DNA of 64,000 nucleotides, taken from contig CAMBDW010000008.1 in assembly GCA_945865535.1 (NCBI GenBank), positions 1-64,000 on the forward strand. The letters run 5' to 3'. This document shows positions 1-9,590 of the stretch, piece by piece. Positions within the stretch are counted from its first letter, which is position 1; every line of letters starts with the position of its first letter. The position numbers and the translations under genes were made by a program. The stretch is from Chryseobacterium gleum. GTDB lineage: Bacteria; Bacteroidota; Bacteroidia; Flavobacteriales; BACL11. The notes beneath the pieces were generated by a model, which did no database searches, was not told the origin of the DNA, and was given only the letters and a program-made list of their open reading frames with translations.

Positions 1-101
1 ACACTAAATCGATTGATTTAGTTACTTACACAAAAGGAGTTTACTTCTTAGAGATTACAACAAATAATGGTGTAGTTAACAAAAAATTAATTCTTCAATA
101 A
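1..101 (+). CDS. C-terminal end of a T9SS cargo protein (partial)
   Basis: The window opens inside a gene. Reading from base 3, about 32 codons run to TAA at 99-101. The last residues include KGVYFLEI and end NKKLILQ. This is the typical end of a T9SS type A C-terminal sorting domain: a GVY/F-hydrophobic strand followed by a Lys-rich last strand. The protein is therefore probably exported and attached to the cell surface or released. Nothing can be said about its catalytic part, which lies outside the window. A strong terminator hairpin follows. Confidence 0.75.
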   Translation, partial: TKSIDLVTYTKGVYFLEITTNNGVVNKKLILQ

Positions 102-132
102 GAACTTCATAAGAAGTAGTTAATTTTAATAA

Positions 133-167
133 TAAGAGAAGCCCGGGCATCTGCTCGGGCTTCTTAT
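133..167 (+). terminator. Intrinsic terminator after the T9SS cargo gene
   Basis: GC-rich hairpin: the arm around AGCCCGGGCA pairs with TGCTCGGGCT, flanked by AATAAGA and TCTTATT, and is followed by TTATTTT. It directly precedes repeat copy 1. Confidence 0.85.
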
Positions 168-171
168 TTTA

Positions 172-240
172 AGTGGGCCTCTCGCTCCATAGTTCTAACT
201 TTTTTTAGAGAATTATTTTGTATTAGTTTGTAATTTGCTC
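172..240 (+). repeat. Dispersed 3'-end repeat, copy 1
   Basis: The core at 172-212 begins AGTGGGCCTCTCGCTCC, continues with ATAGTTCTAACT and a T run, and ends AGAGAA. Similarity to copy 4 extends to about 240 through TTAGTTTGTAATTT. It lies downstream of a terminator and in the orientation of the gene it follows. The central motif is AGTTCTAACT here, against the perfect palindrome AGTTCGAACT in the other copies. Confidence 0.85.
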
Positions 241-265
241 CCCCGCCACTTTTGGGTAGGTACTG

Positions 266-865
266 TTATAAGCTGTTGTTTTTACTTTCGTACCATTCTA
301 TAGCTTTTTGTTCAGTCTGTTTAATAAAGACATTCTTTGCCGAATTATATTTATTGCTGTCTTCCCAATCCAAAGCGCTTAAATGAATTTTTATTTGCTC
401 ATATTCATTTTTAATGTCCAAATGTTTTCTTAAATATTCTCTAAATGCAATATGTCTTATCCAGTGATATGAATTATATTCGAGTATATGAATATGCGCT
501 AATTTGTATTCATTTAATTCATTTGGCACATCATCATTTTCGGAATACATAGTTGGTATAAATATTTTTTCTGGTTTTTTCTTTAGCTTAACAAAGAAAC
601 GTCTATAGGGCATAATTGAATTATATTTTTCATAAAATATATAGTCGTTACTGGTCAATAGTTGTACAATTTTGTCAAGTTGGTCTTGGCTCGGAATTCC
701 AACAAGAATGTCAATTATGGGCTTTGCTGTCAAGTTAAAAATTGAAGTGCTACCAATATGTTCAATTACTGGATTTAAAAATCCCAGGTGGTAACTAAGG
801 TCATTCTCAATGCCTTTGTAAATATTTATCCAGTCAGGATTGTATTTTTCAAGTTGGATTTTCAT
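266..865 (-). CDS. GrpB family protein (nucleotidyltransferase-like fold)
   Basis: 199 residues, the usual length for the GrpB/UPF0157 family. The signature IEHIGSTSI followed by AKPIIDILVG lies at about residues 35-56; in this family these residues form the core of a nucleotidyltransferase-like fold. The cellular role is poorly defined. No signal peptide or membrane segment is present, so it is probably cytosolic. Its 3' end converges on repeat copy 1. Short flanks on both sides (866-901 and 241-265) look like mobile gene-cassette ends, and GrpB genes often travel as accessory cassettes, so acquisition by transfer is plausible. Confidence 0.8.
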   Translation of the reverse strand: MKIQLEKYNPDWINIYKGIENDLSYHLGFLNPVIEHIGSTSIFNLTAKPIIDILVGIPSQDQLDKIVQLLTSNDYIFYEKYNSIMPYRRFFVKLKKKPEKIFIPTMYSENDDVPNELNEYKLAHIHILEYNSYHWIRHIAFREYLRKHLDIKNEYEQIKIHLSALDWEDSNKYNSAKNVFIKQTEQKAIEWYESKNNSL

Positions 866-901
866 ATTCTTACAGTTGCAGCTAACGTTTTGTGGCTTTG
901 C
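866..901 (-). other. Cassette-end-like spacer upstream of the GrpB gene
   Basis: On the minus strand this spacer reads GCAAAGCCACAAAACG, then TTAGCTGCAACTGTAAG, just before the GrpB start codon. From memory, similar AACGTTAGC..GCAA strings occur at the ends of accessory gene cassettes in Bacteroidota genomes. No paired attC structure was demonstrated and no integrase is in the window, so the reading is tentative. Confidence 0.3.
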
Positions 902-1753
902 CTAGTTTTTTGCTTGTTTAAAATGAAATTCCATTAATTTTTCAATTGGATTTTTTATTATTTCTCCAACTTTTAAATTATGTTTTTTTAGTGCTTCTTG
1001 TATTTCTTCAGATAAAAAGTAAGCTACAGAGCCAATAAAGTTAATTTTAACTTCAGCGCTATTTTTAAAACATTTGACATGAAGAGTAATAAATTCATCT
1101 AATGTGTCTTTTATTAATTGCTGTATTAATGGATGACTTTTTGTTTCAATAATAAATGGAAAGTATTTTGATAGAAATACATTTGCTCTACTAGTATTAT
1201 ATACATTTTTATTAATAACAGCTGTATCTGTTTCAAATGAAGCTTCTAATATTTTTTTTAATTCATTGGGCATAATATTGTTGAAATACATATTTAGAAT
1301 TTTTTTCCCAAAATAATTTCCAGATGCTTCATCTCCAATAATAAAACCTAGTGAAGGGCCGTGTTCGAAAATCTCTTTGCCATCATAAAAACAAGAGTTA
1401 GATCCTGTTCCTAAAATACAAGTTATGCTAGGATTTCCATTGTACATTGCAAAGCATGCCGCATCTAAATCGTGGCTAATCGTTATTTCTGCATTTTTAA
1501 AGAATTCTTCAAATGGTAACTCTAGAATTTTATTTTTTTCTATTGAAGAGCATCCTGCACCATAAAAGAAGACGGTTTTAATTTTATCTTTATATTGATT
1601 TAGTTCTGATTTTTTTAAATGACTTAAAATGGAAGGATGGTCAATAAAATAGGGGTTAAATCCAATAGTTGAAATCTCTTTAATAAGATTTCCATCAGTG
1701 TCGCATAAGGCCCAGTGGCATTTTGTTGAACCACTATCAGCAATTAAAATCAT
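902..1753 (-). CDS. BadF/BadG/BcrA/BcrD-type ATPase, probable N-acetylglucosamine kinase
   Basis: 283 residues with the ASKHA sugar-kinase layout. The N-terminal phosphate-1 loop is ADSGSTKCHWAL (residues 5-16). A phosphate-2/adenosine loop, ILGTGSNSCFYDG, follows near residue 113, then GDEASGNYFGKK near 140 and a late FIGSVAYF motif near 240. In Bacteroidota such proteins usually phosphorylate N-acetylglucosamine in the cytosol, but substrate specificity cannot be read from sequence. It is divergent from a sugar permease, which supports an amino-sugar uptake and phosphorylation pair. Confidence 0.75.
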   Translation of the reverse strand: MILIADSGSTKCHWALCDTDGNLIKEISTIGFNPYFIDHPSILSHLKKSELNQYKDKIKTVFFYGAGCSSIEKNKILELPFEEFFKNAEITISHDLDAACFAMYNGNPSITCILGTGSNSCFYDGKEIFEHGPSLGFIIGDEASGNYFGKKILNMYFNNIMPNELKKILEASFETDTAVINKNVYNTSRANVFLSKYFPFIIETKSHPLIQQLIKDTLDEFITLHVKCFKNSAEVKINFIGSVAYFLSEEIQEALKKHNLKVGEIIKNPIEKLMEFHFKQAKN

Positions 1754-1770
1754 AGAATAAATTATTTAGG

Positions 1771-1778
1771 CAAATATA
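1771..1778 (-). promoter_or_regulatory. -7 box of the sugar-kinase gene
   Basis: The minus strand reads TATATTTG, a perfect TAnnTTTG match to the Bacteroidota housekeeping -7 element, 17 nt before the ATG at 1753. Confidence 0.6.
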
Positions 1779-1995
1779 ACTGAAAAGAGATATCTATGAT
1801 GATGCTATACTTGATTTTGAGTTAATCAAAATTCATGTAAGTTTATTTTATGAGTGTATTATGTTTCTAAGTTTGTATTTTTTCAGAGATATTTTTTGTA
1901 ATAAATTAATAAAAAATCAAATAGATTAAATAAGGCGTTGTTATTTTTGATAATATTGCATTGAACAATACAATTAAAAAAAAGATTACAAAATA

Positions 1996-3600
1996 ATGAC
2001 TGAAAACAAAAATCACAACCAAGCATTATTGACTTTGGTAATAGTGTTTTTCTTTTGGGGATTTATAGCTGCATCTAATAGTATTTTTATCCCATTTTGC
2101 AAAACTCACTTCAACCTAAGTCAATTTGAATCCCAATTGATTGGATCGGCATTTTATGGTGCTTATTTTATTGGGTCATTGGTCCTATTTTTATGTTCGA
2201 ACTTAATTGGATATGACATTCTAAATAAAATTGGGTACAAAAAAGGCATTATTTATGGATTATGGATTTCGGTTATTGGAGCTTTGCTTATTATTCCAGC
2301 AGCAAATACGAATTCATTTCCAGCAATTTTAGCTGCATTTTTTGTAGTGGCACTTGGTTTTTCATTACAACAAACCGCAGCGCAGCCGTTTGCTATTTTA
2401 TTAGGAGATCCTGCCACTGGCTCTCACCGTTTAAATTTAGGCGGTAGCTTAAATAGTATTGGCACAACCATTGGACCATTAATTGTCAGTTTTTTCCTTT
2501 TTGGTAGCCCTGATGCAAGAAACAGTATTGTAACAGTTACTAATATTAATGTATTGTATTTGATAGTCGCAGGTGTTTTTGCAGTAGTGGCCATTTTTTT
2601 TACTATATCTAAAAATTTACCAGATGGAAAAAATGATGAAAAATTTGAAACTGCTAATAAAGCGGCTGGTTCATTACTAATAATGACCTTATTAATTGGA
2701 GCTTTCATTGTTGTGGGTCAATTAACCAATGTTCCTAAATTAAATCTTCTTGTTTTTACATTGTTAACAGTGATTGGCATATTATTTTATTCAAATAATA
2801 GTGCCATAAAAAATGATATTGGTTGGGGAGCAATGAAATATCCACAACTTATTTATGGTATGATAGCTATATTTATTTATGTGGGAGTTGAAGTTACCAT
2901 TGATAATAATTTTGGTGCTTTATTAAAAAATCCAGGATACATTACTAAATTAGGATTAGATGAAAGTGAAATTTCTAAATACATCTCTTTGTATTGGGGT
3001 AGTTTAATGATTGGTCGTTGGACAGGAGCAATTAGTGTATTTAACCTAAAAGGTAATATGAAAAAATTTATGATGATTGTTGTTCCTTTTATTGCTTTCG
3101 CTGTAGTATTGGGCGTAAGCAAAATATATGGAAACGATATTTCTGATTTATATGGGTATGCTTTATGGATTGTAATTGCATTAGTCGCTTTCTTTTATGG
3201 TCAAGAAAAACCAGTTAAAACATTATTTATTGTTTCAATTTTTGCAACTATAGCGATGCTTATTGGGGTATTTACCAATGGGATTACTTCCGTTTATGCA
3301 TTCATGGCAGGAGGTTTGGCTTGTTCTGTTATGTGGCCGTGTATTTTTTCACTTGGAGTTGGTGGTTTAGGAAAATACACAAGTCAAGGTTCTGCTTTTT
3401 TAATTATGATGATTTTAGGAGGCGCAATTATACCTCCATTACAAGGGGTATTGGGTGACAACGCGAGTATTGGAATGCATCAATCTTATTTACTAGCTGC
3501 AGTTTGTTTTGCTATTTTAGCACTACTTGCATTAAAATTAAAGAGTGTATTAAAAAAACAAGGACTTGATTTTGATGCTCAAGTAGCTGGAGGACATTAA
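1996..3600 (+). CDS. Sugar MFS transporter (FucP/NagP-like permease)
   Basis: 534 residues, strongly hydrophobic throughout, with about 12 to 14 membrane segments. The first helix carries VFFFWGFIAASN and the third region GFSLQQTAAQPFAILLGDP, both typical of the fucose/glucose-galactose permease branch of the MFS, which imports sugars with protons. LNLGGSLNSIGTTIGP follows. The inner-membrane location is inferred from the helices. It is longer than most family members (about 410-440 residues), the extra length lying in additional hydrophobic segments in the middle and second half. The divergent BadF-type kinase suggests N-acetylglucosamine or a related sugar as substrate. Confidence 0.8.
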   Translation: MTENKNHNQALLTLVIVFFFWGFIAASNSIFIPFCKTHFNLSQFESQLIGSAFYGAYFIGSLVLFLCSNLIGYDILNKIGYKKGIIYGLWISVIGALLIIPAANTNSFPAILAAFFVVALGFSLQQTAAQPFAILLGDPATGSHRLNLGGSLNSIGTTIGPLIVSFFLFGSPDARNSIVTVTNINVLYLIVAGVFAVVAIFFTISKNLPDGKNDEKFETANKAAGSLLIMTLLIGAFIVVGQLTNVPKLNLLVFTLLTVIGILFYSNNSAIKNDIGWGAMKYPQLIYGMIAIFIYVGVEVTIDNNFGALLKNPGYITKLGLDESEISKYISLYWGSLMIGRWTGAISVFNLKGNMKKFMMIVVPFIAFAVVLGVSKIYGNDISDLYGYALWIVIALVAFFYGQEKPVKTLFIVSIFATIAMLIGVFTNGITSVYAFMAGGLACSVMWPCIFSLGVGGLGKYTSQGSAFLIMMILGGAIIPPLQGVLGDNASIGMHQSYLLAAVCFAILALLALKLKSVLKKQGLDFDAQVAGGH

Positions 3601-3626
3601 TTGAATATCATATTTGAGGTATAAAT

Positions 3627-3648
3627 ATTCACTTTTCAGTGGGTTTTT
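3627..3648 (+). terminator. Weak hairpin after the sugar permease
   Basis: ATTCACT pairs with AGTGGGT (two G-U pairs) around a TTTC loop and is followed by TTTT. It sits just upstream of repeat copy 2, the same arrangement as at copies 1 and 4. Confidence 0.5.
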
Positions 3649-3654
3649 ATTTAA

Positions 3655-3712
3655 AGTGGACCTCTCGCTCCATAGTTCGAACTTTTTTAGTAAATTATTT
3701 GGCAATTTTGCT
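3655..3712 (+). repeat. Dispersed 3'-end repeat, copy 2
   Basis: The core at 3655-3694 begins AGTGGACCTCTCGCTCC and contains the palindrome AGTTCGAACT followed by TTTTTAGTAAA. Weaker similarity (GGCAATTTTGCTT) extends to 3712. It is in the orientation of the preceding permease gene. In the rest of the 3601-3907 gap, 3713-3880 shows no feature I can name. Confidence 0.85.
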
Positions 3713-3880
3713 TATCATCCCTTGGAAGATTATTTTATGTATTGGAATCAATAAATACCAATAGATTCTTACAGATAAACCGTGAGGTCTAAAAGTCGCA
3801 GTTTGAGTTAGGTTCAGCTTTTTTATGCTATAAACTATCAAAAGGGCTTTTTACTTTTAATAATCTCTGTGTGGATTTTA

Positions 3881-3888
3881 TAACTTTG
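3881..3888 (+). promoter_or_regulatory. -7 box of the RsmB-like gene
   Basis: TAACTTTG matches TAnnTTTG and lies 19 nt before the ATG at 3908. Confidence 0.6.
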
Positions 3889-3907
3889 TAGCCGATTTAC
3901 AAAAAAA

Positions 3908-5119
3908 ATGAGATTACACAGAAACTTAACCTTTGCAGTTATAGAGAGTATCAGAGATATTTTTAACGAAGGAGTTTATGCCGATAAAGCTGTTGAAAGA
4001 GCCCTACAAAGAGACAAACGTTGGGGTGCAAGAGACCGTAAATTTGTGGCGGAAACCATTTATGAAATAGTTCGTTGGAATCGTTTATATGCAGAAATTT
4101 GTGAAGTAAAAGTGCCTTTTAATGAGGATAATCTTTGGCGATTATTCACTGTTTGGTGTGTGTTGCGTGGCATTCCATTACCCGATTGGAATCAAATTGG
4201 GAATGTCTCTGTACAAAGAATCAAAGGAAAGTTTAAAGAATTGTCAAAAATCAGAAAATACCGTGAATCCATTCCTGACTGGTTGGATGAATTGGGTGTG
4301 CGAGAATTGGGCGAAACACTTTGGACCAAAGAAATTGCTGCCCTTAACAAGCAAGCGGATGTGGTGCTAAGAACCAATACCTTGAATGTGACCAAAGACG
4401 TATTGCAACGAAAGTTGAAAGCGGAAACTATTGAAACTGAAATCATCCCCTCATATCCTGATGCTTTAAAATTGGTAAAAAGAGCCAATGTCTTTACCAC
4501 AGAAACTTTTAAGCAAGGATTGTTCGAAGTGCAAGATGCTTCTTCACAATTAGTAGCAGCCTATTTAGACGTTTTACCTGGAATGAAAGTAGTAGATGCT
4601 TGTGCAGGAGCAGGAGGAAAAACATTGCACTTGGCTTCTTTGATGCAAAACAAAGGACAAATCATTGCAATGGATATTTATGAAAGTAAATTGAAAAAAC
4701 TCAAAATAAGAGCCCGAAGAAATAAAGCCTACAATATAGATTTACGAGTAATTGATTCCACCAAAGTTATTAAAAAAATACATGAAAAAGCAGACAGGGT
4801 ATTGATAGACGCACCTTGTTCCGGTTTGGGAGTTTTACGCAGAAATCCAGATTCAAAATGGAAATTGCAACCTCAATTTATTGAAGAAATCAAACAAATA
4901 CAGCAAGAAGTATTGCAAAACTACTCCAAAATGGTAAAATCTGGAGGGAAAATGGTGTATGCAACTTGCTCTATTTTACCTTCTGAAAATCGACAACAAA
5001 TTGACTTTTTTTTAACATCTGAAGCAGGACAAAGTTTTACTTTTGTGAAAGAAAACAATGTGTTTGCATACCAGTCAGGTTTTGATGGATTTTACATGGC
5101 ATTGCTGGAAAAAAAGTAA
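3908..5119 (+). CDS. RsmB/NOP2-type RNA (cytosine-C5) methyltransferase
   Basis: 403 residues. An N-terminal helical NusB-like region (about 1-140) precedes a class I SAM-dependent fold. The SAM site is DACAGAGGKT at 230-239 with AMDIYESKLKKL at about 254-265. The two cysteines used by this family are present: C304 in DAPCSGLG (catalytic motif IV type) and C354 in YATCSI (motif VI). It therefore most likely makes 5-methylcytosine in rRNA or another structured RNA; the exact target is unknown. It stands alone between repeat copies 2 and 3 with its own -7 box. Confidence 0.85.
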   Translation: MRLHRNLTFAVIESIRDIFNEGVYADKAVERALQRDKRWGARDRKFVAETIYEIVRWNRLYAEICEVKVPFNEDNLWRLFTVWCVLRGIPLPDWNQIGNVSVQRIKGKFKELSKIRKYRESIPDWLDELGVRELGETLWTKEIAALNKQADVVLRTNTLNVTKDVLQRKLKAETIETEIIPSYPDALKLVKRANVFTTETFKQGLFEVQDASSQLVAAYLDVLPGMKVVDACAGAGGKTLHLASLMQNKGQIIAMDIYESKLKKLKIRARRNKAYNIDLRVIDSTKVIKKIHEKADRVLIDAPCSGLGVLRRNPDSKWKLQPQFIEEIKQIQQEVLQNYSKMVKSGGKMVYATCSILPSENRQQIDFFLTSEAGQSFTFVKENNVFAYQSGFDGFYMALLEKK

Positions 5120-5157
5120 TTTTTAATAGTATCACTTTGGAACTAAAACTAAAGATT

Positions 5158-5802
5158 CTATAAAATACTTACCACTAAATTATATCCATATACGTATGTA
5201 GAGGTAAAAAATTCACCAATTCCATAAGATCCATTATTAACAAATGCAATCACTACTCCGTTCATTATTAAGTTCATAAGTACTATTGTGTTAAATGATG
5301 TGAAATACCCATTTTCTGTTATATCTGTTTGTCCTAAATGCATTTCTTTTATAGCACTAACTATATGATATCCAAAACTCATACCAATAACTAAGAAATA
5401 TACTGATATAAATCTATCTTTAATTATTAGGCTGAAAAGAATTAGAAACATAGTTATGGTAGGGAAAAAATATGGAGACAATAGTATAAATATTTTACTA
5501 AGTAGTCCGGATGAACCTGACCATTCAAACAAGCCGGATCCATCAGTATTTACATGAAATCCTTTAGGTTTTTTGAAAAAGAGAAGAGCCCATATATTGT
5601 GTGTCAACTCATGTTTAAATGTAGAAAAATACTGTAGTTTATTAGAAAAAATAAAGTATAAAATAAGAACCGCTATAATTCCTAAGAGAAACATATAATT
5701 TCTTGAAACATCAATATTAAACATTGTAATCTCATTTAAGAACGAATATCCAAAAGGAATAATTAACAAAAGTGATGTAATATTAAATAATAGTTTTTTC
5801 AT
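5158..5802 (-). CDS. Small membrane protein with an HExxH motif (M50-like)
   Basis: 214 residues with about five or six hydrophobic segments (near 3-22, 35-53, 100-125, 128-150, 170-190). The motif HELTH at 64-68 ends a hydrophilic stretch just before a membrane segment and is followed by a GFHVNTDGSG loop. This resembles M50/M50B-type membrane metallopeptidases, in which HExxH binds zinc. I cannot place a clear third metal ligand; a candidate region is LSPYFFP near 108-114. Substrate unknown. The ATG lies exactly 4 nt after a TAAGTTTG box. The gene sits between repeat copies 2 and 3. Confidence 0.5.
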   Translation of the reverse strand: MKKLLFNITSLLLIIPFGYSFLNEITMFNIDVSRNYMFLLGIIAVLILYFIFSNKLQYFSTFKHELTHNIWALLFFKKPKGFHVNTDGSGLFEWSGSSGLLSKIFILLSPYFFPTITMFLILFSLIIKDRFISVYFLVIGMSFGYHIVSAIKEMHLGQTDITENGYFTSFNTIVLMNLIMNGVVIAFVNNGSYGIGEFFTSTYVYGYNLVVSIL

Positions 5803-5806
5803 AAAG

Positions 5807-5814
5807 CAAACTTA
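5807..5814 (-). promoter_or_regulatory. -7 box 4 nt from the ATG of the HExxH membrane protein
   Basis: The minus strand reads TAAGTTTG, then four bases, then ATG at 5802. The expected transcription start falls at or next to the ATG, predicting a leaderless mRNA. Confidence 0.6.
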
Positions 5815-5842
5815 CACAAATATTAAATCAAAGATGAAAGAG

Positions 5843-5915
5843 AAAAAGTCAAACCAGCAGATTATGACCTAAAAGTTCTCTAAAAAAGTTCGAACTATGG
5901 AGCGAGAGGCCCACT
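5843..5915 (-). repeat. Dispersed 3'-end repeat, copy 3
   Basis: The core at 5876-5915 reads, on the minus strand, AGTGGGCCTCTCGCTCC, the palindrome AGTTCGAACT, then TTTTTAGAGAA. The extension to about 5843 ends GCTGGTTTGACTTTTT, matching copy 4 (GCTGGCCTGACTTTTT). It lies about 100 bp after the prolyl oligopeptidase stop, in that gene's orientation. No clear hairpin precedes it, unlike the other three copies. Confidence 0.85.
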
Positions 5916-6017
5916 AAAAAAATGACTAAATAAGAAGCAAGAGCATTTACTTATAGCTATTGTTGCAAGTAATACTTATAGTTCTTTAAAGTTATACAAA
6001 AAAGCAATAACATTTAA

Positions 6018-8090
6018 TTACTTTAACTTCATCAATAAGTATGAAAATGTCATAGCGCTATATTTGGCACTTTGTTCATTTGTTGAAGCGCCAGCATGAC
6101 CTCCTTCAGTGTTTTCATAGTAATAGATTGGATATCCCATATCAATCATTTTAGCAGCCATTTTTCTTGCATGTCCTGGATGCACACGATCATCACGAGT
6201 TGACGTATAAAAGTATACTTCTGGATAGTCAACATCTTTTTTTAGATTGTGATATGGAGAATACTTTTTAATATATTCCCATTCTTCTGGTATATCTGGA
6301 TTTCCATATTCTCCCATCCAACTAGCTCCTGCAAGTAATTTATTATAGCGTTGCATATCTAATAACGGAACTTCACAAACCGCCGCATTATACAAATCAG
6401 GTCTTTGCGTAAAGGCAACACCAACTAATAAGCCACCATTACTGCGCCCCATTATTCCAAGATTTTTATTACTTGTAATCTTTTTAGCAATTAATTCTTG
6501 AGCTATGCAATGAAAGTCATTATAAACAGTTTGTCTGTTTTCTTTTAAACCAGCTTGATGCCATTTTGGACCATATTCACCACCACCTCTAATGTTTGAT
6601 AATACGTAAACTCCACCATTTTCAAGCCAAGCATTGCCCATAACTGCTGAGTAAGAAGACTCCTTTGATACTTCAAATCCACCATATCCATAAAGAATGG
6701 TAGGGTTTTGACTATTGTACACCATTGTTTTAGAAGAAATAACAAAATAAGGAACCATTGTACCGTCAGTTGATTTTGCTTTAAATTGTTCTACTTTGTA
6801 TTTACTAGAATCAAAAAAAGAAGGTAACGTTTTAATTTCTTTTACAGAATTGTTTGATGAGTTGGCGAAATAAAGTGAAGGAGGAGTTAAAAAATTTTGA
6901 AAATTAAAGTAATACTCATCTGAAAAATGATCAGTAGTTACTATAGATATTGTTCCAACATCTGGAGCATTTACTTTTTCTATTACCCATTTATCATTTT
7001 CAAAAGTGTAACTATTTAATTCACTTTTTACATTTGTTAAAATGGTTACTAAAATTTTATTTTTTGTAGAGCTAACTTCATTGACACTTGTAAATTCATC
7101 AGGAGTAAAAATTAAAGTTATTTCTTTTATCCCTTTAATTAAAGATGAAAATTTAGCACTTACAATTGATCCTTGTTTGTAAATTATTCCATTTACATTC
7201 CAATCCGACTTTAAATTAAGTACAATTTGATCGTTTAAAATGGTAGAGATTGAAATATCTTCTGGCAAATCTAATTTTATTAGTTTATTGTTCTCACATA
7301 GGTAGGCAATCCTTGTATAAAATGTTGTGCCTTGATGAATGAGCAAATAATTTTTATCGTTATCACGCATTACATATCCTGAAGATGATACATCATTGAT
7401 GTTTCCTGTATGAATTAACTGAGCATCTTTAAGCAAAGTTCCTCTTTTCCATAGTTTAACTTGATTAGGATATCCAGAAGTAGTCATTGTGCCTTCACCG
7501 AAATCTGTAGAGACTATTAAGTTGTTTTCGTCTAAATAACTTGCATATCCTTTTGCTTGTGGGATATAAAAACCGTCTTTTATAAATGATTTAGTTGTAA
7601 TATCAAATTCACGAATTTCAACAGCATCACCTCCACCATTTGATAAATTTATGATAAATCGGTTGTAATTTGGATACAATCCATTGGATCCTTTATAAAC
7701 CCATTTTATATCATCTTTTAATGCTAATGCATCAATGTCTAAAAGTGTTTCCCAAATAGGATTATTACTTAAATAACTTTCCTTAGTAGTCCTTCTCCAA
7801 ATACCTCTAGCGTGTTCTTTATCTTGCCAAAAATTATATATGTGATTGCCTATTATTGATGGAAAAGCGATTCTATATGTAGAATTATATATTTCTAGAG
7901 ATTTATCGTATATGGCTTGATATTCAGCATTACTACTTAATTTATCTTGGGTTATCTTATTTTGGGTATTAACGAATTCTAGTGATTTTTTGCTGTCAAT
8001 GACTTCTAACCATAGGTAAGTATCTTCTTGGGCTTGCATTCTAAATAGTGTAGTGAAAATTATTAAAAAAAATAAAGTGTTCTTTGTCAT
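6018..8090 (-). CDS. Secreted prolyl oligopeptidase family protein (S9A)
   Basis: 690 residues with an N-terminal signal peptide of about 20 residues (FFLIIFTTLF, then AQ), so it is probably periplasmic. The N-terminal two-thirds forms the beta-propeller region. The C-terminal alpha/beta-hydrolase domain carries the full triad: Ser in GRSNGG (about residue 550), Asp in TRDDRVHP (about 630) and His in GGHAG (about 665). GYGGFEVS and NIRGGGEYG are family hallmarks. It should cleave short peptides after proline or a related residue. It stands alone on the minus strand between repeat copies 3 and 4, with two similar -7-like boxes upstream. Confidence 0.9.
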   Translation of the reverse strand: MTKNTLFFLIIFTTLFRMQAQEDTYLWLEVIDSKKSLEFVNTQNKITQDKLSSNAEYQAIYDKSLEIYNSTYRIAFPSIIGNHIYNFWQDKEHARGIWRRTTKESYLSNNPIWETLLDIDALALKDDIKWVYKGSNGLYPNYNRFIINLSNGGGDAVEIREFDITTKSFIKDGFYIPQAKGYASYLDENNLIVSTDFGEGTMTTSGYPNQVKLWKRGTLLKDAQLIHTGNINDVSSSGYVMRDNDKNYLLIHQGTTFYTRIAYLCENNKLIKLDLPEDISISTILNDQIVLNLKSDWNVNGIIYKQGSIVSAKFSSLIKGIKEITLIFTPDEFTSVNEVSSTKNKILVTILTNVKSELNSYTFENDKWVIEKVNAPDVGTISIVTTDHFSDEYYFNFQNFLTPPSLYFANSSNNSVKEIKTLPSFFDSSKYKVEQFKAKSTDGTMVPYFVISSKTMVYNSQNPTILYGYGGFEVSKESSYSAVMGNAWLENGGVYVLSNIRGGGEYGPKWHQAGLKENRQTVYNDFHCIAQELIAKKITSNKNLGIMGRSNGGLLVGVAFTQRPDLYNAAVCEVPLLDMQRYNKLLAGASWMGEYGNPDIPEEWEYIKKYSPYHNLKKDVDYPEVYFYTSTRDDRVHPGHARKMAAKMIDMGYPIYYYENTEGGHAGASTNEQSAKYSAMTFSYLLMKLK

Positions 8091-8108
8091 TATTTTTGAT
8101 TAAGAGGG

Positions 8109-8155
8109 CAGCAAAATTACAAAAAATAAAAAAGTCAGGCCAGCAAAATTACAAA
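8109..8155 (-). promoter_or_regulatory. Two tandem -7-like boxes upstream of prolyl oligopeptidase
   Basis: The 15-mer CAGCAAAATTACAAA occurs at 8109-8123 and again at 8141-8155, 32 bp apart. On the minus strand each contains TAATTTTG, matching TAnnTTTG. The distal one belongs to the outer part of repeat copy 4, so the repeat may supply a promoter. Confidence 0.45.
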
Positions 8156-8209
8156 CTAAGACTTAACAGTTCTCTAAAAAAGTTCGAACTATTTAGCGAG
8201 AGGCCCACT
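8132..8209 (-). repeat. Dispersed 3'-end repeat, copy 4
   Basis: The core at 8170-8209 reads, on the minus strand, AGTGGGCCTCTCGCT, then AAATAGTTCGAACT and TTTTTAGAGAAC. The extension to about 8132 contains TTAGTTTGTAATTTTGCTGG, shared with copy 1, and GACTTTTT, shared with copy 3. It follows the tRNA-Val terminator in the tRNA's orientation. Confidence 0.85.
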
Positions 8210-8215
8210 AAAAAT

Positions 8216-8320
<105 letters not shown>

Positions 8321-8381: not shown

Positions 8382-9590
8382 TCAAACGACTTCAGCAACC
8401 ACAAAAGTACTTCCTCCAACAAAGATTAGGTCTTCAAGTTGTGCTTGTTTTTTTGCTCTAGCAAGTGCTGTTTTTACACTAGAGTAGGAATCGCCTTTAA
8501 TCTCTTTTTTACTAGCAATTTCTTTTAAGATATTCTCATCTAGTCCTCTTAGAATATTTGGTTTGCAGAAATAATATTTGGCATCCTTTGGTAGCAGATT
8601 CAGTATTGTATCTAAATCCTTATCATTAACAGCTCCAAAAACTATATGTAGGTTTTTATGTGGGGTTTGTTTTAGTTGATTAAAAACTACTTTTATTCCA
8701 TCTTCATTATGACCCGTATCACAAATTATTAGAGGGTTTTGGCCCAATATCTGCCACCTTCCTAATAGTCCTGTATTTTTAATAGTATTTAGTAATCCGT
8801 CTTTTATATTATCTTCATTTATATTCCAACCCTGTTTTTGGATTTCTGAAATTGCCGTGACAACTGTATCTATATTTTCTTTTTGATAATTTCCTTTTAA
8901 ATCAGCTATGAAGTTGTGAGCAGTGGCGTATTTCAAAGGAGCCTTTTTTTCATTAGCAATATTTTCAAAAATGGGTTTAATTTCCTCTTGATTTCTGCCA
9001 ATAATAATTGGAGTATTTGATTTGATTATTCCTGCTTTTTCTTTGGCTATTTTTTGAATAGTGTCCCCTAGTAAATTGGTATGATCAAGCCCAATATTTG
9101 TTATTATTGATAATTCAGGATTGATAATATTGGTACTGTCTAATCGACCGCCTAAGCCGGTTTCAATTATAGCAATATCTACTTTTTGATAGGCAAAATA
9201 GTGAAAAGCCAAAGCAACTGTAAATTCAAAAAAGGAAAGATCTATCTTTTCAAAAGCAGTTTTATTTTTTGAAACAAATTGTATTACTTCTGATTTGGCA
9301 ATCATCTTGCCACTTATCTTTATTCTTTCTCTAAAATCTTTTAAATGAGGGGAGGTGTATAAGCCAACTTTGTAGCCTGCTTCTTGAAATATGGATGCCA
9401 ACATATGGGAAACCGATCCTTTTCCATTAGTTCCAGCAATATGAATACTTTTAAATTTCTTGTGAGGATTTTCTAGCGTTTTTGAAGCTGCAACTATGTT
9501 ACCAATATCCGCTTTATAAGCCACCACCCCATCTCTTTGATACATTGGTAAACGACTAAATAAATAATCGAGGGTTTGCTGATATGTCAT
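8382..9590 (-). CDS. folC: Bifunctional folylpolyglutamate / dihydrofolate synthase
   Basis: 402 residues, a Mur-ligase-type enzyme of the cytosol that adds glutamate to dihydropteroate and reduced folates using ATP. The P-loop is GTNGKGSVSHM at about 53-63. YTSPHLKDFRERIKI follows, and GLGGRLDSTN and ITNIGLDH supply Mg/ATP-site residues. The C-terminal Rossmann-like domain contains ICDTGHNEDG. Length is normal for the family. It is last in the exbB-exbD-tonB-folC run and overlaps tonB by one base. Confidence 0.93.
   Translation of the reverse strand: MTYQQTLDYLFSRLPMYQRDGVVAYKADIGNIVAASKTLENPHKKFKSIHIAGTNGKGSVSHMLASIFQEAGYKVGLYTSPHLKDFRERIKISGKMIAKSEVIQFVSKNKTAFEKIDLSFFEFTVALAFHYFAYQKVDIAIIETGLGGRLDSTNIINPELSIITNIGLDHTNLLGDTIQKIAKEKAGIIKSNTPIIIGRNQEEIKPIFENIANEKKAPLKYATAHNFIADLKGNYQKENIDTVVTAISEIQKQGWNINEDNIKDGLLNTIKNTGLLGRWQILGQNPLIICDTGHNEDGIKVVFNQLKQTPHKNLHIVFGAVNDKDLDTILNLLPKDAKYYFCKPNILRGLDENILKEIASKKEIKGDSYSSVKTALARAKKQAQLEDLIFVGGSTFVVAEVV

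Follow-up and report, generated by a model that had tools for sequence, protein, structure and literature searches.

The window, i.e. the whole stretch of 64 kb that was analysed, opens on the plus strand with a gene 3' end (1..102), which, as read from the sequence, encodes a tail resembling a type IX sorting tail (..GVYFLEITTNNGVVNKKLILQ up to the stop). The core of a first repeat copy, GTGGGCCTCTCGCTCCATAGTTCTAACTTTTTT, lies at 173..205 on the plus strand behind a terminator hairpin (GCCCGGGC..GCTCGGGC, 135..165, plus strand), which is common to other copies in the same genome. The second core (3656..3688, plus strand) follows a gene for an MFS sugar-type permease (1996..3600, plus strand; domain search) and a weak terminator-like hairpin (3627..3652, plus strand), and the 110 bp after this copy recur behind another element on contig C2 of the same genome. 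The third (5882..5914) and the fourth core (8176..8208) are located on the minus strand and enclose a prolyl oligopeptidase gene (Peptidase_S9; 6018..8090, minus strand), a candidate cassette; a 19 bp direct repeat, GGGCAGCAAAATTACAAA, is found at 8105-8123 and 8137-8155, between copy 4 and the peptidase gene. The terminator AAAACCCACTCAAAAGTGGGTTTTTTTT (8216..8243) can be read both ways: its plus reading ends at the neighbouring tRNA gene as AGTGGG, and its minus reading precedes copy 4. This gene, tRNA-Val(UAC) (8245..8320, minus strand), lies 42 bp from copy 4 with its 3' end (reverse complement GTGGGCGATGAGGGACTCGAACC), which is the anchor site of the array, and is flanked by a folC-like Mur ligase family gene (8382..9590, minus strand), an arrangement that is conserved in relatives.

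All four cores, identified by a genome-wide pattern search with base 0 at 178(+), 3661(+), 5909(-) and 8203(-), lie where a first-pass annotation of the window had placed a repeat, and no fifth core was found elsewhere in the 64 kb, in agreement with its report of none in 8.3-64 kb. Likewise, the terminator-like hairpins that it had described are present, clearly at copies 1 and 4 and weakly at copy 2, and the element is indeed not coding. What is apparently another repeated joint sequence, CTAACGTTTTGTGG (window 880-905) or CTAACAGTTGGTTATGTGC (locus L056, G000:C30 ~3835-3860), occurs near a GrpB gene and a recombinase copy.

Abundance and anatomy of the element

A search of the genome to which the window belongs (G000, 1.5 Mb; G codes denote genomes and L codes loci) and of its relatives confirmed that the element occurs genome-wide. 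With up to three mismatches 24 copies were found in G000, compared to one for a reversed-pattern control, from which we conclude that the repeat is not a local duplication, and it is present in 38 of the 52 genomes of the same family; beyond this family it is almost confined to a few small-genome families of the order. When 717 kb of array-containing DNA were scanned with a profile built from 89 aligned sites, 138 sites scored 10 bits or more, and an equally long first-order Markov shuffle gave no such site. The four copies in the window are real and far beyond chance. The preference for gene 3' ends and for the sense of the gene held as well: at 98 of 131 sites the nearest upstream ORF runs in the direction of the element, a count that rests on raw ORF calls. 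No Rfam family was matched by the element, viral contigs contained no exact match for two element patterns when searched for phage carriage, and no description of the element came up in the literature library that was searched. Outside the family, G106, G099 and G133 (family f9; L176, L177, L181-L184) carry a variant core, CCTAAGCGTCC, whose TTCGAACT end is unchanged, and an array lies beside tRNA-Val in another family (L179, G126). At G049:C1:848-894 kb, a series of sites that mostly have 3 mismatches and lie exclusively on the minus strand is perhaps an old, decaying array.

The aligned sites give the consensus GTGG(G/A)CCT(C/T)(T/A)CG(G/C)TCC..A.TTCGAACTTTTTT, which is followed by an AT-rich tail, and the core is 33 bp long with the bounds GTGG-RCCTYWCGGTCC..TTCGAACTTTTTT. 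The form AGTTCGAACT is that of the window's own genome and the relatives have TTATTTCGAACT or TAAGTTCGAACT; since these forms differ between genomes, the constant part is TTCGAACT only. Just upstream of the sites a hairpin (MFE below -6) is found in 81% of 167 cases, compared to 10% of control windows. These hairpins are strong, carry a T-run and are of two main kinds, ACCCACTC..GAGTGGGT and GCGGAATC..GATTCCGC. Downstream, the weaker similarity over 20-35 bp reported at first pass is in part the AT-rich tail with the Bacteroidetes -7 box TAnnTTTG, which 54 of 167 sites carry at +28..+75, compared to 16 in control windows, and in 33 of those 54 it lies exactly at +42. Where the next gene is codirectional, its start lies in many cases about 54 nt past the core.

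Between cassettes that are unrelated in other respects, the DNA ~160 bp ahead of many sites agrees to 80-86% (e.g. L046:9543-9748 and L061:18483-18690), and it probably codes for the type IX sorting tail and the terminator, as if tails were exchanged. The DNA at 1..102 of the window matches the ends of other cassettes (L055, L049, L056 and L048; 85-93%, blastn).

Exchange of cassettes between genomes

The sites form same-sense arrays, in which they enclose one to a few genes. Among 101 such cassettes compared, many bodies are near-identical across genomes, with unrelated neighbours on both sides: whole bodies recur at 84-100% identity in other species or genera, e.g. a 1.43 kb cassette in G049, G048 and G045 with 98-99% identity and three different pairs of neighbours, and between genera the identity reaches 97-99% (G022/G024 99%, G007/G013 99%, G045/G011 98%). 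In addition, occupied and empty sites were observed within one genome, where the contigs G043:C3 and G043:C5 differ at two places in the presence of the intervening cassettes. A caveat is that repeats could have led to misjoins in those contigs that are short MAG pieces. Cassettes of the window's own genome, located on contigs C20 and C16, match G048 (90%), G043 (84%) and G029 (84%), whereas blastn with the window's own genes as query gave short matches only and did not find them as cassettes elsewhere. These comparisons show cassette mobility for the relatives and for the own-genome arrays on other contigs, and not for the window's genes.

The most frequent recognised domain in about 100 cassette proteins is the type IX secretion tail with nine members (PF18962 and TIGR04183), and the other domains are very diverse (SDR, S9 peptidase, LRR, PKD, TonB receptor, SnoaL, ECF sigma). 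By a crude test, 92 of 146 cassette ORFs encode an N-terminal signal or membrane segment.

These results bear on the two readings that the first-pass annotation had offered, i.e. either a REP-like mobile element inserting behind terminators, considered here as REP/RAYT or IS200-like, or an RNA element conserved at 3' ends. The hairpin, the orientation and the position after terminators speak for them, and the description as a non-coding, genome-wide and oriented repeat behind terminators stands. The repeat that jumps by itself does not, since whole genes move between copies and the moving unit is the DNA between two of them; this exchange largely refutes the two readings, and the Y1 transposase family behind REP/RAYT (Y1_Tnp) was found in only 2 of the 52 genomes, the window's own not among them. 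An RNA element is not favoured because the copies lie beyond the terminator, the core also stands before the next gene and joints fall inside the core; the lack of a match in Rfam likewise counts against it. We consider this pair of readings very improbable.

RNA gene anchors and candidate recombinases

The minus-strand tRNA that had been noticed beside copy 4 proved to be an important clue, since tRNA-Val anchors such arrays in relatives. Arrays face the tRNA-Val 3' end in at least nine genomes (G000, G002, G014, G018, G022, G029, G042, G043 and G048), and further anchors are tRNA-Met (G011), tRNA-Arg (G032) and tmRNA (G029, 330 bp from a site). Altogether, 14 distinct anchors have an array site that faces the RNA gene and is no more than 5 kb away from it, which is a hand count from several listings and not a formal test; by chance, a few per cent of about 40 eligible anchors would be expected, given up to 24 sites in 1.5 Mb. 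Where an array meets the tRNA end (GTGGGCAATGAGGGACTCGAACC in backward reading), the TTTTT(G/A)GTGG of its last cassette borders directly on it. The G042 cassette that adjoins tRNA-Val recurs with 99.8% identity as an internal cassette of G043, so that the terminator and the GTGG belong to the cassette. However, tRNA-Cys and tRNA-Leu have abutting terminators of other types, so that abutment alone proves little.

The core resembles the tRNA end, with GTGGGC..TCGAAC in common and a differing middle, and compared to tRNA-Val the element has 5 nt more between GTGG and TCGAAC. Judged by this likeness, the core may be a portable imitation of a tRNA 3' end read backwards, in which GTGGGC..TCGAAC would correspond to CCA, discriminator and acceptor up to the T-loop.

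In G047 and G003, tRNA-Val harbours an island of about 7 kb with an integrase (Arm-DNA-bind_5, Phage_int_SAM_5, Phage_integrase) inside the unit and with a direct att repeat, whereas the cassettes carry no integrase gene. The attL and attR of these islands share the 22 bp GTGGGCAATGAGGGACTyGAAC, followed by TTTC on the island side, which is the layout of the element. The two islands (L166:4650-11789 and L168:5750-12850) gave an identical integrase match in two genera. Related integrases directly follow tandem tRNA-Ser/tRNA-Pro genes in G045, G048 and G049, where that of G049 is broken, and an array in the same direction lies further on, at 3.7 kb, ~7 kb and ~30 kb, respectively. From the tRNA-Val islands and the tRNA-Ser/Pro integrases with arrays we conclude that tyrosine integrases of the tRNA type are the leading candidates. 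No integrase gene was found tied to most arrays and none beside that of the window, for which reason action in trans is assumed; we infer both the identity of the enzyme and the core as its substrate.

A different candidate is an IntI/XerA-like tyrosine recombinase of 273 aa, which is encoded beside uvrC (G000:C6:73131-73949; L068:1216-2037); a further, partial copy lies at the end of contig C30 (G000:C30:3941-4063). It was rejected as the driver, since it is present in few genomes (G000, G008 and G009), has decayed to remnants at the corresponding position of G038 and G048, and is not near the sites, with the partial copy on C30 as the sole exception. A canonical integron was rejected, too, as none of the 52 genomes has an integron integrase (TIGR02249) over the cut-off.

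In another reading, the repeat would act as an integron-like folded single-strand site, with the bottom strand GGACC-GNRA-GGYCC used by some further recombinase or by an integron-like integrase; the existence of the IntI-like gene beside uvrC speaks for it. Folding of the core as the hairpin GGRCC-TYNC-GGTCC is suggested by its sequence: in relatives, 648 of 700 cells are paired at the stem positions, compared to 157-458 when slid, the variable positions coincide with loop and linker, and 151 of 167 loops read TYNC, i.e. GNRA on the other strand. However, 20 of 26 copies in the own genome have C opposite C at stem positions 0/7, meaning that one pair is lost, there are no clear compensating base changes in the stem, and inspection of the aligned core revealed no evident attC R''/R' boxes (RYYYAAC..GTTRRRY). 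Together with the distance of the recombinase gene from the sites and the absence of integron integrases over the cut-off, this makes a folded substrate of such an enzyme improbable.

Position of the joints and proposed mechanism

In pairs of sites that share the upstream cassette, matching at variable positions falls to background from -1 on, and in pairs with a common downstream cassette the increase takes place between -1 and +3. Several joints were bracketed between GTGG and the following R: L038/L039 and G049a 17637/G048a 10505 delimit them on the left, G048a 13463/G045C20 3366 and the G043 event on the right. An earlier consistency test, which was without power, could not distinguish a fixed from a random joint (P 0.83). 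In a likelihood comparison, one fixed crossover position common to all pairs had to be rejected (lnL -1222 compared to -1033 when a free mixture was allowed). The crossovers of at least three events fall in the T-loop half, at +15..+29, and some others lie left of -1. Integrases that target tRNA genes make two joints, at the end and in the T-loop, so that either both joints are used here, or later conversion or homologous recombination was added.

Ordinary homologous recombination, i.e. natural uptake and RecA acting over the 60-75 bp of shared terminator, core and AT-rich tail, could produce such exchanges, with the repeat being conserved through recycling or for transcription at the gene end and next start. 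It would account for crossovers that do not fall at one base, for the terminators and the preceding sorting-tail coding DNA that cassettes also have in common, and, by deletion between direct repeats, for the occupied and empty pairs of G043. Against it, the core has a constant part that is more sharply defined than the terminator and the tail and is also kept in other families, and the first G043 joint lies in a 10-bp stretch despite an adjacent identical stretch of 23 bp. Furthermore, tRNA-Val, tRNA-Met, tRNA-Arg and tmRNA share only ~7 bp and TyGAAC with the element, which is too little for RecA, and the arrays nonetheless end exactly at those RNA genes in the same orientation. We regard homologous recombination as rather unlikely.

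We consider it likely that the repeat is an attachment-type recombination site of a gene-cassette system, tRNA-like and used in trans by tyrosine integrases of the tRNA type. A cassette would begin with the core RCCTYWCGGTCC..TTCGAACTTTTTT, which in many cases is followed by a promoter, and would continue with one or a few genes, many of them for secreted proteins, a terminator and the TTTTT(G/A)GTGG end. Joined head to tail, so that each joint is a terminator with GTGG and the next core, cassettes would be inserted and removed by trans-acting integrases (Arm-DNA-bind_5/Phage_int_SAM_5/Phage_integrase), giving additive, integron-like arrays anchored at tRNA-Val and less often at tRNA-Met, tRNA-Arg or tmRNA. 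The varied crossovers, the lack of an array-tied integrase, the additional 5 nt of spacing and the window genes not found elsewhere count against this mechanism; the multiple crossover positions are the main reason why we call it likely and no more, and why homologous recombination keeps some weight.

The closest known systems are additive flexible genomic islands at tRNA genes, as in Alteromonas (PMC4119200), the fGI-2 of Ca. Methylopumilus, whose repeats are the last 20 bp of tRNA-Lys (PMC10872708), and the cassettes of Ca. Actinomarinales with tRNA fragments at their ends and exchange between genera (PMC7771536). The present arrays share with them the accretion at tRNA 3' ends in streamlined aquatic bacteria, joints marked by repeats that resemble the tRNA end, the presence of cassettes in different species with exchanged neighbours and the passage between genera, but have a dedicated 33-bp core that would imitate and not copy the tRNA end, lie also away from tRNAs and often consist of single genes with their own promoter and terminator. 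With integron attC arrays they have in common tandem, mobile same-sense cassettes of 0.5-4 kb with one conserved site each, many unknown proteins and exchange between species; unlike in integrons, the conserved part stands at the cassette start, cassettes often carry their own promoter, the anchor is a tRNA and not attI, and no integron integrase passes the cut-off in the 52 genomes. Integrative islands that target tRNAs, among them tycheposons as far as PMC10872708 touches on them, are similar in their tyrosine integrase, the tRNA 3' end as attB and direct att repeats, features observed here at the tRNA-Val islands of G047 and G003, but most cassettes here lack an integrase and are far smaller. 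The system operates in the manner of both the additive islands and integrons, but has the dedicated core, units that in many cases are single genes with promoter and terminator, and lacks an integron integrase; it would be classed with the tRNA-anchored additive islands, as a variant, and not as an integron.

More tentatively, the arrays may represent a distinct class of cassette capture, in which an evolved, foldable, tRNA-imitating site would allow recombinase-less cassettes to enter tRNA and tmRNA ends and one another, with the integrases of unrelated islands acting on them in trans. The 33-bp core provides an exact tag for cataloguing cassettes in any metagenome, and the system is a possible link between tRNA-anchored islands and integron-like arrays. 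Without integrons, uncultured Flavobacteriales with small genomes swap single genes between genera, most of which encode secreted or surface proteins, and if the distinct class holds true, it would supply a family of streamlined Flavobacteriales with secreted proteins.
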